Positions 24,528 through 29,439 of a DNA stretch of 64,000 nt are shown one piece after another. This DNA is from Nitrospirales bacterium LBB_01. GTDB taxonomy: Bacteria > Nitrospirota > Thermodesulfovibrionia > Thermodesulfovibrionales > Magnetobacteriaceae. Numbering within the stretch: the first letter of the stretch is position 1; each line of letters begins with the position of its first letter. Where the stretch lies: assembly GCA_004376055.2 (NCBI GenBank), contig CP049016.1, positions 1,798,001-1,862,000 on the forward strand. Direction: 5' to 3'. The notes under the pieces are model-generated. The model was not told where the DNA came from, did not search any database, and worked only from the letters and a program-made list of their open reading frames with translations. Made by a program: the position numbers and the translations under genes.

Positions 24528-24594
24528 TATAGTGGATCCCAAATATGAGACAATCAGTTAAGATAGAGCTGGTTGTAATGAATGGGAGGATAAA

Positions 24595-24888
24595 ATGAAA
24601 AACAGACGGAAGTTTGGCAAAGAGTACAAAGCAAAAGTAGCAATAGAAGCGCTCAAAGGTCAGAGGACAGCCAATGAGATAGCGCAGGAATTTGATATTC
24701 ATGTGAACCAGGTGAATGAATGGAAAAAGCATTTAGTAGAAGGGGCGTCAACGTTATTTAATGGAGTGCAAGAAAATTCTCAGGCGGCATATGAATCAGA
24801 GCGAGAGCGGTTATATAGTCAAATAGGGAAGTTGCAAGTAGAAGTGGACTGGCTAAAAAAAAAGAGCCTGTTACTTGCGCAACGGTAA
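24595..24888 (+). CDS. IS3-family transposase OrfA (copy 1)
   Basis: DNA-binding subunit of 97 residues. A helix-turn-helix occupies about residues 5-45 (KFGKEYKAKVAIEAL, TANEIAQEFDIHVNQVNEWKK) and a leucine-zipper-like coil follows. The A AAA AAG slippery heptamer at 24858-24864 lies near its end. A -1 shift there enters the orfB frame, which is open from the A-run onward, so an OrfAB fusion transposase is expected. Confidence 0.92.
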   Translation: MKNRRKFGKEYKAKVAIEALKGQRTANEIAQEFDIHVNQVNEWKKHLVEGASTLFNGVQENSQAAYESERERLYSQIGKLQVEVDWLKKKSLLLAQR

Positions 24889-24902
24889 GTGAGAAACGAG
24901 CG

Positions 24903-25730
24903 ATGATAGAGCCAGCAAATAAGGAATTGAGTATTCGTCAGCAGTGTAACCTGCTAAGCCTTCCACGCTCCAGTTATTATCGTCAGGCAGTACCGGAGAG
25001 CGAGGAGAATTTGAAGGTGATGAGGGCAATAGATGAGCAGTACACAATGCATCCATGGTATGGAAGCCGCACAATGGTTTACATTCTTTTCCGAGCAGGA
25101 TATAAAGTAAATCGCAAGCGAGTAAAGCGTTTGATGATGTTGATGGGTCTTGTATCTATAGCACCCAGAAAAAGAACGACAGTACGGAATAAGCAACATA
25201 AAGTTTACCCTTATCTACTGCGATTATTAGATATTACTATCATCAACCAAGTCTGGTGCAGTGATATAACGTATATTCGAATGAGACATGGCTTTGTGTA
25301 TCTGACAGCAGTAATGGACTGGTATAGCCGCTATGTGCTGTCATGGGAGGTGTCAGTGACAATGGATGATGGTTTTTGCGTAAGTAGCCTTGAGCGAGCC
25401 CTTAGGCTCTATGGCAGTCCTGAGATATTCAACACAGATCAAGGCAGCCAGTATACAGGGGCAGCGTTTATCAATGTGCTTCAGAGCAATGGGATTCGGA
25501 TAAGTATGGATGGCAGAGGACGGGCTATGGATAATATCATGATTGAGCGGCTGTGGCGCAGTGTCAAGTATGAGGAGGTTTATATAAAAGATTATGAAAC
25601 TGTTGATGAGTTGATTAAAGCGCTAAGGAGCTATTTTGATTTTTATAACAATGAGCGTCCGCATTCTACGCTTAGAGGCAAAACACCTGCCGAGGTTTAT
25701 AAAAGCTCTGATTTTGCGATGGCGGCGTAA
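24903..25730 (+). CDS. IS3-family transposase OrfB, DDE integrase (copy 1)
   Basis: Catalytic subunit of 275 residues. An HTH_21-like region (HPWYGSRTMVYILFRAGYKVNRKRV) precedes the rve integrase core with D in CSDITYIR, D in NTDQGSQYTG and E in ERLWRSVKYEEVY. The C-terminus ends YNNERPHSTLRGKTPAEVY. ATG 24903 is the first in this frame, but the working protein is probably the OrfAB frameshift product. Confidence 0.94.
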   Translation: MIEPANKELSIRQQCNLLSLPRSSYYRQAVPESEENLKVMRAIDEQYTMHPWYGSRTMVYILFRAGYKVNRKRVKRLMMLMGLVSIAPRKRTTVRNKQHKVYPYLLRLLDITIINQVWCSDITYIRMRHGFVYLTAVMDWYSRYVLSWEVSVTMDDGFCVSSLERALRLYGSPEIFNTDQGSQYTGAAFINVLQSNGIRISMDGRGRAMDNIMIERLWRSVKYEEVYIKDYETVDELIKALRSYFDFYNNERPHSTLRGKTPAEVYKSSDFAMAA

Positions 25731-25833
25731 GGATGCATTACCCTATCCCTTACCCTTATACTAACAGACTAAATACCCTCTTAGAGGGCTATACCTTAAG
25801 TCCACTAAAAAGTGGTCTTGACAATGGGGTCCA

Positions 25834-26049
25834 CTATAGTTTACAGAAGATTTCCTTGGGTAATTGTTTACCGGTTTGGCATCTTGCAAATTCTTGCATC
25901 TCATAACTAACCTCAAAAGAAGGCAGCAATGCCGCATACCCATCTTTTGCTATGAGTCTAAGCCTGCAAACGCTGTGTTTTGATATTTTTTCCAATTTCT
26001 GATAAAACACATCATCCAACTCATACCTTCTTGATGTTGCTGTTGCCAT
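25834..26049 (-). pseudogene. Small gene of unknown function truncated by IS copy 1
   Basis: ATG 26049 follows GGGGGG by a few nt. Seventy codons are original (MATATSRRYELDD to EIFCK); then the reading frame runs into the IS end and stops at TAG inside its inverted repeat. Joining to 24472-24527 restores an 87-residue protein. It has no motif I recognise. Its upstream side carries the GATTACA arrays, so it may be a target of the neighbouring SARP-like regulator. Confidence 0.6.
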
Positions 26050-26130
26050 AATTACCCCCCACAAGTAATTTAGTTATTTATAGAGGACTATGCCCTCGTT
26101 GTATTTACTGCTTTCAGTTTATCTTATAGC

Positions 26131-26148
26131 AATAACAAAACGATTACA
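26131..26148. promoter_or_regulatory. Heptamer array A (two units, 11-bp period)
   Basis: AATAACA-AAAC-GATTACA: one degenerate and one perfect heptamer with a 4-bp spacer. Same layout as arrays B and C. Confidence 0.55.
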
Positions 26149-26184
26149 TTCAGTGTGACAACGCTGCTGTATTATTGCTGTAAT

Positions 26185-26213
26185 GATTACAAAACGATTA
26201 CAGAGGGATTACA
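26185..26213. promoter_or_regulatory. Heptamer array B (three perfect GATTACA, 11-bp period)
   Basis: GATTACA at 26185-26191, 26196-26202 and 26207-26213, separated by AAAC and GAGG. Perfect heptamers at an 11-bp period put every copy on one face of the helix. Direct heptamers with 4-bp spacers are the known binding pattern of SARP regulators, and a SARP/BTAD protein is encoded next door (26723-28969). It lies 12 nt upstream of a candidate -35 box. Confidence 0.7.
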
Positions 26214-26224
26214 ACAGAGGTTTA

Positions 26225-26256
26225 TTGAAATCCAATATGTAAAAATGTGTTATAAT
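26225..26256 (+). promoter_or_regulatory. Candidate promoter downstream of array B
   Basis: TTGAAA (26225-26230) and an extended -10 TGTTATAAT (26248-26256) with a 20-nt spacer, longer than ideal, as is common at activator-dependent promoters. It would transcribe toward the antitoxin-like gene at 26513, leaving a leader of about 250 nt that contains a BIME. Confidence 0.5.
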
Positions 26257-26309
26257 AGGTGAAGGTGGAAATAAAATAATTGCATATGCAGTTAGCTCCG
26301 CAAACAAAA

Positions 26310-26386
26310 ACTGGATTCCTGCCTTCGCAGGAATGACAAAAAAAGAAAGCCCCTCTTGTCATTCCCGCCTACGAGCGGGAATCCAG
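26310..26386. repeat. BIME-like dispersed repeat, copy 2 (T-arm then C-arm)
   Basis: The T-arm hairpin (CCTGC/GCAGG) comes first and the C-arm (CCCGC/GCGGG) second, between ACTGGATTCC and GGAATCCAG. Arm order is reversed relative to copy 1. Confidence 0.88.
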
Positions 26387-26512
26387 CCCTTTTTTCAAAT
26401 TTAAAATACATAGAAACCTACCCCCTTAGAACCATGAAAACCCGCTACCGGAGTTAACTCAATAAGCATTTATGTATATTTATGAGATTAAACACAGAAA
26501 GGAGGCATACAG

Positions 26513-26698
26513 ATGATAAAAACCCAGATAATTGAACAAGACAAACAGCCGGTTGCCGTAATATTGGACTATAAAGAATATCTTAAGTACAAAGAAATTG
26601 AGCAAGACAGAGATGATTATTATTCAGGTGTTGAGACAAAACTAAAAAACAAAAAATGGATTAGCCATAAGGACTTAAAAGCTAAGTTAGGCATATAG
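26513..26698 (+). CDS. Phd/RelB-like antitoxin homologue without a toxin
   Basis: Protein of 61 residues. The start (MIKTQIIEQDKQPVAVILDYKEY) resembles the DNA-binding N-terminus of Phd/RelB/YefM antitoxins; a charged toxin-wrapping tail (KNKKWISHKDLKAKLGI) follows. AGGAGG precedes the ATG. No RelE/Doc-like toxin gene follows; the next gene is on the opposite strand 24 bp away. Either a relic of a toxin-antitoxin pair or an antitoxin used as a repressor. Confidence 0.6.
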   Translation: MIKTQIIEQDKQPVAVILDYKEYLKYKEIEQDRDDYYSGVETKLKNKKWISHKDLKAKLGI

Positions 26699-26709
26699 TT
26701 ATCTACTGC

Positions 26710-26727
26710 AATTACAAAACGATTACA
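26710..26727. promoter_or_regulatory. Heptamer array C at the end of the regulator gene
   Basis: AATTACA-AAAC-GATTACA, with the spacer identical to arrays A and B. It overlaps the stop codon of the BTAD regulator gene. Confidence 0.5.
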
Positions 26728-28969
26728 ACTCAAGCAGTTTTTTCAGTGATGGGGATGGTTCTGTCTGAAGCTCATCTGTGAACAGTCTTACACACTCATT
26801 GTAGGTCTGCACTGCCTTGTTTTTCCTGCCTGTTACCATATAAGTCCTGATTAGTAGCTCGTGGCAAGTCTCGTTATAGGCGTCCCTCATTAGACATCTG
26901 TTTGCATACTCAATAGCCGATCCATAGTCGCGGCTCCTGTAATGATACATGGCTATCCATAGCAGGGCTTTAATTTCAAGGTCGATATATTTTTCTCTTA
27001 ATGGAATTGCCCAGCTAAAGGGGTCTTCTTTCAAAAATTCACAGCCATCGGTTATTTCAAGAGCCGATTTAAACAAAGAATGTGCCGTATCGTTGTCGTT
27101 TTCTTTAGCGGCAGCTTTTGCACTACTTATAAGTTGTTCAAAATTAAAAGCATCAACGTAAGAGCCTTGAGGTATTGTAAGAATATACGAACTGCCTTTT
27201 GTTTCAAGGTACGCCGATTGTGTTTTTTGGGAAATATCAGGCTGCAGGATTTTTCTTATTGTGCCGATACACTGCCTCAAGCTCGCTTTTGCTTTTTCAA
27301 GGGGCACATCTTCAAAAAACGTGTCTATCAGCGAATCTGTGCTTATCTGTTTGTTTGAATGAAAGACCATATAGGCAAAGATATAAATTGCCTTTTTTCT
27401 GTTCCACATTGAAACTGTAATTTTTCTGTCTCCGACAAAGATTTCCATATTTTCAAACATATATATTTTAAGCGGCTGCGCAGTGAGTGTCTCAGCTGAG
27501 ATGCCGGCATCCGCAACATATCCCATATCGGCGTTCACATTAGAAATGTAACTGGATATGTTTAGTGACAGGGGAACGTTGTTTTCCGCTACTGCTTTTT
27601 CTTTAGCTTTAATCATCAAATCAATAGCGCTATTGAAATCTCCCTCAGTGTAGTATGCCCATCCAAGAGCAAAAATAACGATGGCATGGGAGTCAACAAC
27701 TTCGTCGGGGATTTGTTTGATTAATGAGTACATATCAGATAACCCTATAGGAAACAGCGGTTCTGAGTGTGAAAATACATTCTCAAGAGCGCTGACAGTC
27801 AAGTTATAGTCTTTAGCTAAAATTGCATGTTGCAGCGCCTCAGAAAAATTCTGGTTTTTATTATAATATGCAGCCGCCCTCTTATGCAGCTCAGTTATAA
27901 AATTCTCATTATCATCCTCAGTGTGTACAATATTTCTCAAAAAATATAGAAATATACGATGATACTCATACGCTGCCTTATCCTTGCCACATGGGACAAT
28001 CAAATGCTGCACAGTTGATAAGAAATAATCAAATTCAACCTGATTGAATTCAAAAAGAAGATTGTACAGTTGAAAATCAAATTGGTCAACAATAGAGGTT
28101 GCTCTTAAGAACAGCTTTGTTTTAGCATCAAAATTGGAGTAGATTTCATCGTAGATATAATCATATATAACTTTCCCGGGTTTGCTTAAATCTAAAAGCA
28201 GCTCATTTAAATTATCATGCCTTTTTAACATATAAGAATGTGCAATAAAATCAAGAGCCAGGGGCCAACCGTTGCAGTAGCTGGCAACTGTTTCTATATC
28301 CTCTTGCGTTAAATTTATATTATGCAAATCGTTAAAAAACGCTTTAATTTCTTCATTATCAAATCTTAACTCCTCCTCAGATATTTCCAAGACCTCACGA
28401 TAGGCTATAAATTTGCTGAGCCTTAATTCTGTGGTTATCCCTATGGTTAATAAAATAATATGAAGGTTATCCGGGCAGTGTTCTAATAAGTATTTTAATA
28501 CTGCTCTGAATTTATCTGAATTTCCGGTCAAATGATAGCTATCTATAACAACAATTATTCTATCTCTGAACGCAATTATTTCTTCAAATAAGACAGAAAT
28601 TAGTTTCTGCCAATTTCTGGCATTGACCGTTTCGGCGGTTATGCTGACTTTGTCGATGCTCAAATCATATCTAGCCGCTATTGCTAAGACAATATGGAGA
28701 ATAAAATTGAGAAGAACATTATCTCTTTCATCGCAGTTATACCACAGGTAATCATACTGTTCATCATCCAAAAACGACTTAACCTGTACAGACTTGCCAT
28801 ATCCTCCGGTTGCGCATAGCAACGTCATTTTTCTGTTTAGGCCGCTGCTTAATAAGTCAACTATCCGAGACCTAATCATGATTTTGTGTGATATCTTAGG
28901 CGGTAAAAATTTTACCTTTTCAGGGATGAATGGAGATATTGCATCCCCTTTACGCATTTTTCTTGCCAC
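26723..28969 (-). CDS. MalT-like ATPase transcriptional regulator with SARP/BTAD C-terminus
   Basis: Cytoplasmic regulator of about 748 residues. The N-terminal STAND-type ATPase has a Walker A-like TGGYGKSVQ (about 55) and Walker B RIIVVIDSYHL (about 140). A helical repeat region spans roughly 330-470. From about 495 an OmpR/PhoB-type winged helix follows (LKIYMFENMEIFVGD, then YIFAYMVFHSNKQIS and ASLRQCIGTIRKIL), and a BTAD helical domain fills the last 150 residues. GTG 28969 is preferred: GGGGAGAGG lies just before it. The TTG at 29023 has no ribosome site. SARP domains bind direct heptamer repeats, and such repeats lie at its 3' end and 500 bp away. The ligand sensed is unknown. Confidence 0.82.
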   Translation of the reverse strand: MARKMRKGDAISPFIPEKVKFLPPKISHKIMIRSRIVDLLSSGLNRKMTLLCATGGYGKSVQVKSFLDDEQYDYLWYNCDERDNVLLNFILHIVLAIAARYDLSIDKVSITAETVNARNWQKLISVLFEEIIAFRDRIIVVIDSYHLTGNSDKFRAVLKYLLEHCPDNLHIILLTIGITTELRLSKFIAYREVLEISEEELRFDNEEIKAFFNDLHNINLTQEDIETVASYCNGWPLALDFIAHSYMLKRHDNLNELLLDLSKPGKVIYDYIYDEIYSNFDAKTKLFLRATSIVDQFDFQLYNLLFEFNQVEFDYFLSTVQHLIVPCGKDKAAYEYHRIFLYFLRNIVHTEDDNENFITELHKRAAAYYNKNQNFSEALQHAILAKDYNLTVSALENVFSHSEPLFPIGLSDMYSLIKQIPDEVVDSHAIVIFALGWAYYTEGDFNSAIDLMIKAKEKAVAENNVPLSLNISSYISNVNADMGYVADAGISAETLTAQPLKIYMFENMEIFVGDRKITVSMWNRKKAIYIFAYMVFHSNKQISTDSLIDTFFEDVPLEKAKASLRQCIGTIRKILQPDISQKTQSAYLETKGSSYILTIPQGSYVDAFNFEQLISSAKAAAKENDNDTAHSLFKSALEITDGCEFLKEDPFSWAIPLREKYIDLEIKALLWIAMYHYRSRDYGSAIEYANRCLMRDAYNETCHELLIRTYMVTGRKNKAVQTYNECVRLFTDELQTEPSPSLKKLLEL

Positions 28970-29042
28970 ATCCTCTCCCCGGCTTAGAACACCAACATGT
29001 ATCAACAACACTGAATTCCACAAATCCCAAGTCCTGCCATAG

Positions 29043-29070: not shown

Positions 29071-29126
29071 TATGCCGAATTGCAAAAAAAATATTTTGCT
29101 TATTCCCTTAGATCCGCAAAGAAAAA

Positions 29127-29263
29127 ACTGGATTCCTGCCTTCGCAGGAATGACAAGAAAAAAAGGAATGACAAGAAAAAAAGGAATGACATACTCTGAA
29201 TGGTATTCCTCTGTAAAATCGCTCCCCTCCTTTGTCATTCCCGCCCACGAGCGGGAATCCAGT
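29127..29263. repeat. BIME-like dispersed repeat, copy 3, with internal duplication
   Basis: T-arm on the left and C-arm (CCCGCCCACGAGCGGG) on the right, between ACTGGATTCC and GGAATCCAGT. The inner end of the left arm, GGAATGACAAGAAAAAAA, is repeated in tandem, so the middle is longer than in other copies. Confidence 0.85.
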
Positions 29264-29439
29264 CCTTTTTTATGTATCTTTAGCTGACATAAAACTATGT
29301 ACCTGATAAGTACATAAACAAAAAAAATATTTTAATGCTCTATACCTTATTTAAGCTATATCTGCTATAATAGGCTGTTTGGTTAACAAAAAACATTATT
29401 GTTCTTAGCTGAAAACATTATGAAAGGATTATACCTTAG

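Follow-up and report, generated by a model that had tools for sequence, protein, structure and literature searches.

Three arrays of direct heptamer repeats with an 11-bp period, GATTACA on the forward strand and TGTAATC when read leftwards, were found in the window (the whole 64,000-nt stretch of contig CP049016.1 of Nitrospirales bacterium LBB_01) beside a gene for a MalT-like NTPase that ends in a SARP module. The array is conserved beside the orthologous regulator of a sister genome, similar repeats cluster at SARP genes across the family, and one class of family sites has its own promoter geometry. Whichever protein binds them, the arrays are a leftward-facing direct-repeat operator of the PhoB/SARP winged-helix type, the output gene of which is broken. 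We hold it slightly more probable than the contrary that they are operators of the adjacent regulator's SARP module, or of its ancestor, in the promoter of the next gene on the regulator's strand, here called gene X. This reading is favoured by the adjacency in two species, the clustering in other genera and the pairing of promoter class with recognition helix, whereas the Pho promoters of the genome and the altered contact residues of the regulator favour PhoB.

Repeat arrays and the genes around them

The preliminary description had placed three clusters of heptamers 11 bp apart in this region, and its coordinates proved exact (Table 1). The heptamer-AAAC-heptamer layout that it ascribed to all three applies to arrays A and C and to the first spacer of array B, but the second spacer of B is GAGG. 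The mismatches of arrays A (two) and C (one) are located in the outer heptamer. Array B lies upstream of array A at a distance of 43 bp, or about four turns, while array C, which overlaps the stop codon of the regulator gene, is nearly a copy of array A (19/20 nt identical).

Table 1. Features of the array region (positions in the window)
Feature	Position	Strand	Description
IS3-type element	24528..25838	+	orfA 24595-24888, orfB 24903-25730; inverted ends 24528-24541/25825-25838
Gene X remnant	25834..26064	-	76 codons from TTG; ATG at 26049
TAAGAT	26121..26126	-	candidate -10 or degenerate third repeat, 4 nt past array A; conserved in G002
Array A	26131..26148	-	AATAACA-AAAC-GATTACA, 2 mismatches; leftwards TGTAATC-GTTT-TGTTATT
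TAATAC	26169..26174	-	weak candidate -10, spaced by 10 nt from array B's last heptamer as in the family promoter class
Array B	26185..26213	-	perfect triple GATTACA-AAAC-GATTACA-GAGG-GATTACA; leftwards TGTAATC-CCTC-TGTAATC-GTTT-TGTAATC
Phd/YefM-like orphan antitoxin ORF	26513..26698	+	61 aa; weak Pfam match, E 0.0016, below cut-off
Array C	26710..26727	-	AATTACA-AAAC-GATTACA, 1 mismatch; leftwards TGTAATC-GTTT-TGTAATT
Regulator	26723..29023	-	766 aa from first start codon (TTG); MalT-like NTPase, then C-terminal winged helix and BTAD

The arrays are real and beyond chance. In a search of the 3.27-Mb genome, exact GATTACA-N4-GATTACA occurred only in array B, as two overlapping pairs, and the reversed-pattern control gave no match; with one mismatch allowed, array C and two scattered unrelated sites were matched as well. 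Under a first-order Markov model 0.035 exact pairs and 2.5e-6 exact triples are expected per genome. Pair counts at up to three mismatches (349 in the genome vs 230 in the reversed control) were discarded as too noisy. An origin by chance clustering, or by the spread of a simple repeat, could draw on the commonness of lone GATTACA words, which are mildly over-represented in the window (16 vs 9.4 expected), but it is refuted by the genome-wide counts, is at odds with the conservation of the array in the sister genome G002 and retains hardly any probability.

Sites of PhoB and of SARPs point at the promoter that they serve, and the arrays in their TGTAATC sense therefore face left, to gene X. 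Apart from the remnant in the window, this gene was found in G002 alone. The intact G002 homologue is about 251-257 aa long, matched no Pfam family and shares 52% identity with the remnant over 67 aa; only the first ~67 residues match, and no other part of the gene was found in the window genome. The preliminary description had spoken of an IS-split gene: disruption by an insertion sequence, the IS3-type element, was confirmed, but the gene is truncated and not split. Gene X is the likely target of arrays A and B.

Candidate -10 elements in the window are less regular than those of a 22-site family promoter class described below, in which TANNNT stands 10 nt past the second heptamer. That spacing is shared by the weak TAATAC of array B, while the TAAGAT of array A lies at another; no consensus -10 at the family spacing was found for arrays A and C, and neither a TAATAC- nor a TAAGAT-type box follows array C. 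The regulator's own promoter carries no array.

The antitoxin-like gene, which had been proposed as a target as well, was rejected. The arrays face away from it, the -10-like box that reads rightwards is 37 nt distant from array B, and G002 has an unrelated RHH/ParE pair in place of the phd-like gene, with the array still upstream of gene X.

The regulator, its orthologue and its relatives

The regulator matched MalT (PDB 8bob) over residues 33-425 (E 1.4e-27) and, by phmmer, AfsR (8hvr) over residues 549-763 (E 1.6e-7) and EmbR over residues 547-764; residues 623-763 correspond to Pfam BTAD (E 1e-18), and the Pfam Trans_reg_C model gave no match. The MalT, AfsR and BTAD matches back the SARP architecture fused to a MalT-like ATPase that had been recognized earlier, although the gene, then given as 26723-28969, extends to 29023 when read from its first start codon. 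A predicted PhoB/OmpR-type winged helix directly precedes BTAD, as is characteristic of SARPs. The module is C-terminal, after the MalT-like NTPase, and not N-terminal as in AfsR and PimR; domain order is not taken here as SARP-defining, but it makes the regulator a variant. The only match to the regulator in its own genome is the regulator itself, which is the single MalT-SARP gene there.

About 350 aa of the middle, the TPR region present between the two halves in family relatives (G010, G007), are missing from the regulator. The orthologue in G002, a genome of the same genus, shows 61 and 57% identity in two SARP pieces, and its open frame begins after the NTPase half. Comparison of the two gave a dN/dS of about 0.25 over 324 codons, with dS near saturation; judged from this alignment, the regulator ORF is open and has evidently been under purifying selection since the split from G002. 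It is very unlikely that the arrays are relics, that is, once functional operators now without output. The IS3 truncation of gene X, the missing TPR region and the imperfect heptamers of arrays A and C would fit such a history, but array B is perfect and the regulator frame has stayed open under selection.

T88 and R92 are the two base-contacting residues of AfsR (PMC10936776). The aligned positions of the regulator are Q and T, while R92 is kept in those family members with the strongest motif link. The replacement is not family-defining, and on the alignment it suggests an altered specificity.

In G002 (3.7 Mb) the only exact pair adjoins the orthologous regulator, 600 nt past it. The order on G002:C32 is gene X (-), array, RHH/ParE pair (+) and regulator (-), and that of the window is gene X remnant (-), arrays A and B, lone Phd-like ORF (+), array C and regulator (-). 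The block TGTAATCGTTTTGTWATYGCYATAAGATAMACT of array A is conserved at G002:C32:974-991 between diverged flanks, and the array keeps its place upstream of gene X while the toxin-antitoxin type genes differ.

Several further observations concern these loci. The Phd-like ORF of the window (26513-26698) and the RHH and ParE-like pair of G002 (L039:1056-1557) fill the same gap between array and regulator, suggesting that this gap is an insertion hot spot for toxin-antitoxin type genes. TGTAACA-AACT-TGTAACA is present before an HMA_2-domain gene beside the G002 regulator (L039:3280-3296) and, in G003 (L263:583-599), before an HMA_2-domain gene beside a MalT-like fragment; homologues of the gene in G005, G013 and G016 have similar boxes with no SARP gene near. 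A REP-like element (CTGGATTCCTGCCTTCGCAGGAATGACA ... GTCATTCCCGCC.ACGAGCGGGAATCCAG) occurs in two copies, at 26306-26395 and 29123-29271, one on each side of the regulator gene.

The window genome belongs to the same GTDB family as the magnetotactic Nitrospirota member Ca. Magnetominusculus xianensis. In strain HCH-1 of the latter (G011), all exact pairs belong to one perfect triple on contig C124 (LNQR01000124.1), 68 nt upstream of a 1088-aa MalT-SARP gene, and are followed by a fourth, degenerate heptamer and, 11 nt after it, by TATAAT. Searching 19 family genomes for TGTAAY-N5-TGTAAY resulted in 109 listed sites, or 103 after merging of overlaps, and 15 of these 103 places lie near SARP/MalT genes vs 0.39 expected. 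Without the three discovery genomes the count is 9 of 80 vs 0.31 expected (binomial p 3e-11, for sites that are not independent within one locus and genomes that are few and related). By our own count, 13 of the 15 SARP-linked sites have the orientation of the SARP gene and in most cases point at the gene that follows it downstream, as in the window. Co-occurrence of motif and regulator in related genomes had been put forward as the check on the preliminary description, and where the regulator occurs the motif was neither absent nor scattered: the G002 array lies beside the orthologue, and the family sites cluster at MalT-SARP genes. Direct heptamer repeats 11 bp apart are present both as arrays A, B and C and at the family sites, with the regulator as their putative binder.

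A general role of the array as autoregulatory operator of MalT-SARP genes was rejected, as only two of 28 upstream regions carry it, those of the G011 gene and of L091, both of which had been found through the motif.

Phosphate genes and the Pho-box alternative

The arrays might instead be Pho boxes, in which case PhoB would bind them under phosphate limitation and would have activated gene X and, in Ca. Magnetominusculus, the SARP gene itself. Direct repeats of TGTCAY/TGTAAY with an 11-bp period define the Pho box, and the arrays have this form; in E. coli, TGTAAY variants are bound by PhoB, and its sites include TGTAACCCGTATGTAACA (PMC10294691). A PhoB-like regulator is encoded in the window genome (G000:C1:2370824-2371501; Response_reg and Trans_reg_C, with 267 bits to TIGR02154 against a curated cut-off of 296). 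The pstS-box pattern, a YGTMAY-N5 triple, finds only the pstS promoter (TGTAACA-CAAA-TGTCACT-CTGT-TGTAACA) and array B in the window genome and only pstS promoters in G003 and G002, one of the G002 promoters reading CGTAATC-AAAA-CGTAACG-TAAA-CGTAATC-AAAG-TGTAACA; the control gave 0. A TGTAAY pair before pstC and a TGTAACA in the phoB promoter of the window genome point the same way, as do a TGTAATC-AAAA-TGTAACA array about 400 nt upstream of a phoB-like gene in G005 and the Q and T at the AfsR contact positions of the regulator. At the phoU-pstB region of the window genome no Pho box was found.

In a scan for the triple with one heptamer relaxed, 84,980 species genomes yielded 59 stretches, two of which adjoin BTAD genes (G011 and an AfsR-like gene in Firmicutes ZCTH02-B6). 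With the genes read from sequence, exact triples in other phyla stand upstream of pstS- (L061), pstC- (L084, L097) and PiT-like (L068) genes, and TGTAATC triples also upstream of porin-like genes, the series extending to L064 and L076; TGTAATC looks like a widespread Pho-box variant. The idea that the TGTAATC triple is SARP-specific across bacteria was dropped on these counts, two of 59 beside BTAD genes and several before phosphate-uptake genes. The scan also returned a perfect GATTACA triple 150 nt upstream of the 1097-aa AfsR-like gene of Firmicutes bacterium ZCTH02-B6 (L091:1722-1750), which has an N-terminal SARP module and a triple oriented opposite to the Nitrospirota cases. The triple recurs beside one gene family in three Clostridioides difficile genomes (L104, L105, L110) and beside one FtsA-like gene family in Clostridia (L062, L079, L085, L087, L090, L095, L098, L109).

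By sequence, Pho box and SARP operator suit the arrays about equally. Binding by PhoB would, however, leave it to coincidence that in two species the arrays stand next to the only MalT-SARP gene of the genome. The nearest leftward gene is not a phosphate gene but gene X, which has no known phosphate role, its G002 homologue matching no Pfam family. Pho promoters of the family show either CTTAATR-CAAT-TGTAACA or TAAT spacers with ATTGAAATGTTA after them, whereas a GTTT spacer is common to the window and G002, and the NATA class of sites described below is missing where a genome has pst genes without a box-linked RTT-type SARP. We regard the Pho-box reading as possible, though on the doubtful side. 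Another response regulator of the OmpR/PhoB family could also be the binder, and both SARP and PhoB would then be wrong as to the protein and right as to the type of site; this class binds 11-bp direct repeats, and several more full-length PhoB-like regulators are encoded in the genome. It is an unlikely candidate, as the arrays have no link to any other regulator gene and the motif follows SARP genes family-wide.

A family promoter class and its bearing on SARP regulation

A promoter class of the form AATN-TGTAACN-NATA-TGTAAC-N10-TANNNT comprises 22 sites in the family (e.g. L224, L227, L229, L236, L241, L251-L254), and neither the AT before the first heptamer nor the TA...T of the -10 varies in any of them. 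Only six genomes (G001, G005, G011, G013, G015 and G016) contain the class. Each of the six has a SARP with an RTT, RTN or RVT recognition helix and the class is absent from the 13 other genomes (6 vs 0/13), two of which share a genus with five of the six; the count is limited by genome completeness (75% for G017, 64% for G018), the helix grouping was made after the boxes were seen, and some box-less SARPs, for example in G006, also have R at the first helix position. Only the window genome and G002, the two in which the regulator has an LRQCI-type helix, contain TGTAATC-GTTT-TGTAATY. The distribution suggests that helix type pairs with promoter class, and the class, as far as sequence comparison goes, supports SARP-type operators in Nitrospirota. 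Apparently it represents an undescribed regulon. Many of its promoters precede sensor-kinase-like genes or members of a conserved family without known function (...TTAKQFILASSAPIHECLVS...).

From the start of the first heptamer to the -10, the 22-site class measures 28 nt. The -10 of the afsS promoter lies at about -12. Its upstream AfsR repeat begins at -40 (PMC10936776). The interval between these two is likewise 28 nt, equal to that of the class. Pho promoters have a similar layout, and the geometry consequently does not separate SARP from PhoB.

Among known systems, the large SARP AfsR of Streptomyces coelicolor resembles the regulator in joining winged helix and BTAD to an NTPase and a TPR region, and its afs box consists of two 11-bp direct repeats, of which the upstream repeat covers the -35, with the same distance from first repeat to -10 as in the 22-site class (PMC10936776). 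It differs in its N-terminal SARP module, in the NTPase, which is MalT-like here, in T88/R92, which are replaced in the window regulator, in the heptamer, TGTAATC/TGTAACN here, and in its host, here a member of the Nitrospirota. The pimM operators of PimR (SARP-LAL), one triple and one double of heptamers with mostly 4-nt spacers at the promoter of a neighbouring target, are resembled by the triple of array B and the double of array A as main and secondary operators; the PimR consensus is CGGCAAG, however, the secondary operator has a 3-nt spacer, and the target is another regulator in an antibiotic cluster (PMC5930380). PhoB shares the winged-helix superfamily and the 11-bp-period direct repeats, and TGTAAY is found at pstS, pstC and phoB of the window genome, but PhoB is a response regulator with a receiver domain, the Pho promoters of the family differ in spacers and downstream sequence, and gene X is not among the known Pho genes. 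MalT, an ATP-dependent activator of the LuxR type, has a LuxR-type helix-turn-helix at its C-terminus. It resembles the regulator in the N-terminal NTPase region (PDB 8bob), whereas the window regulator ends in the SARP module. In the literature collection that was searched, nothing specific on SARP/BTAD regulators outside actinomycetes or in Nitrospirota was found.

Taken as operators of a direct-repeat-binding winged-helix activator, the arrays would most likely be bound by the SARP module in which the neighbouring MalT-like regulator ends, or by its ancestor, with one protomer per TGTAATC heptamer, 11 bp apart on the same face of the DNA. The bound activator would recruit RNA polymerase to a promoter that reads leftwards into gene X; the binder, activation in preference to repression and the exact -10 are what we infer here. 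The circuit is probably decaying in the window genome, because its output gene has been truncated by the IS3 element. From the local SARP circuit of the preliminary description, the architecture, the repeats, their conservation in G002 and the clustering at MalT-SARP genes are retained, the antitoxin-like gene is lost as a target, and PhoB has to be counted as a real rival.

For the family, we give an even chance to a SARP-type regulon outside actinomycetes, in which the C-terminal-SARP MalT-like NTPases of Ca. Magnetominusculus and its relatives would activate the AATN-TGTAACN-NATA-TGTAAC-N10-TANNNT promoters, many of them before sensor-kinase-like or signalling-type genes, and the window would represent a divergent branch in which heptamer (TGTAATC) and recognition helix are both distinct. 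The near-identity that SARP operators and Pho boxes would then show in one genome calls for caution when either is annotated. If the regulon is true, SARP-style activation on 11-bp repeats would not be confined to antibiotic-producing actinomycetes, and the pairing of RTT-like and LRQCI helix types with TGTAACN-NATA and TGTAATC-GTTT, respectively, would allow SARP specificity to be tested from sequence. A signalling regulon of magnetotactic-type Nitrospirota would then be SARP-run, by a module relocated to the C-terminal end of a MalT-like NTPase.
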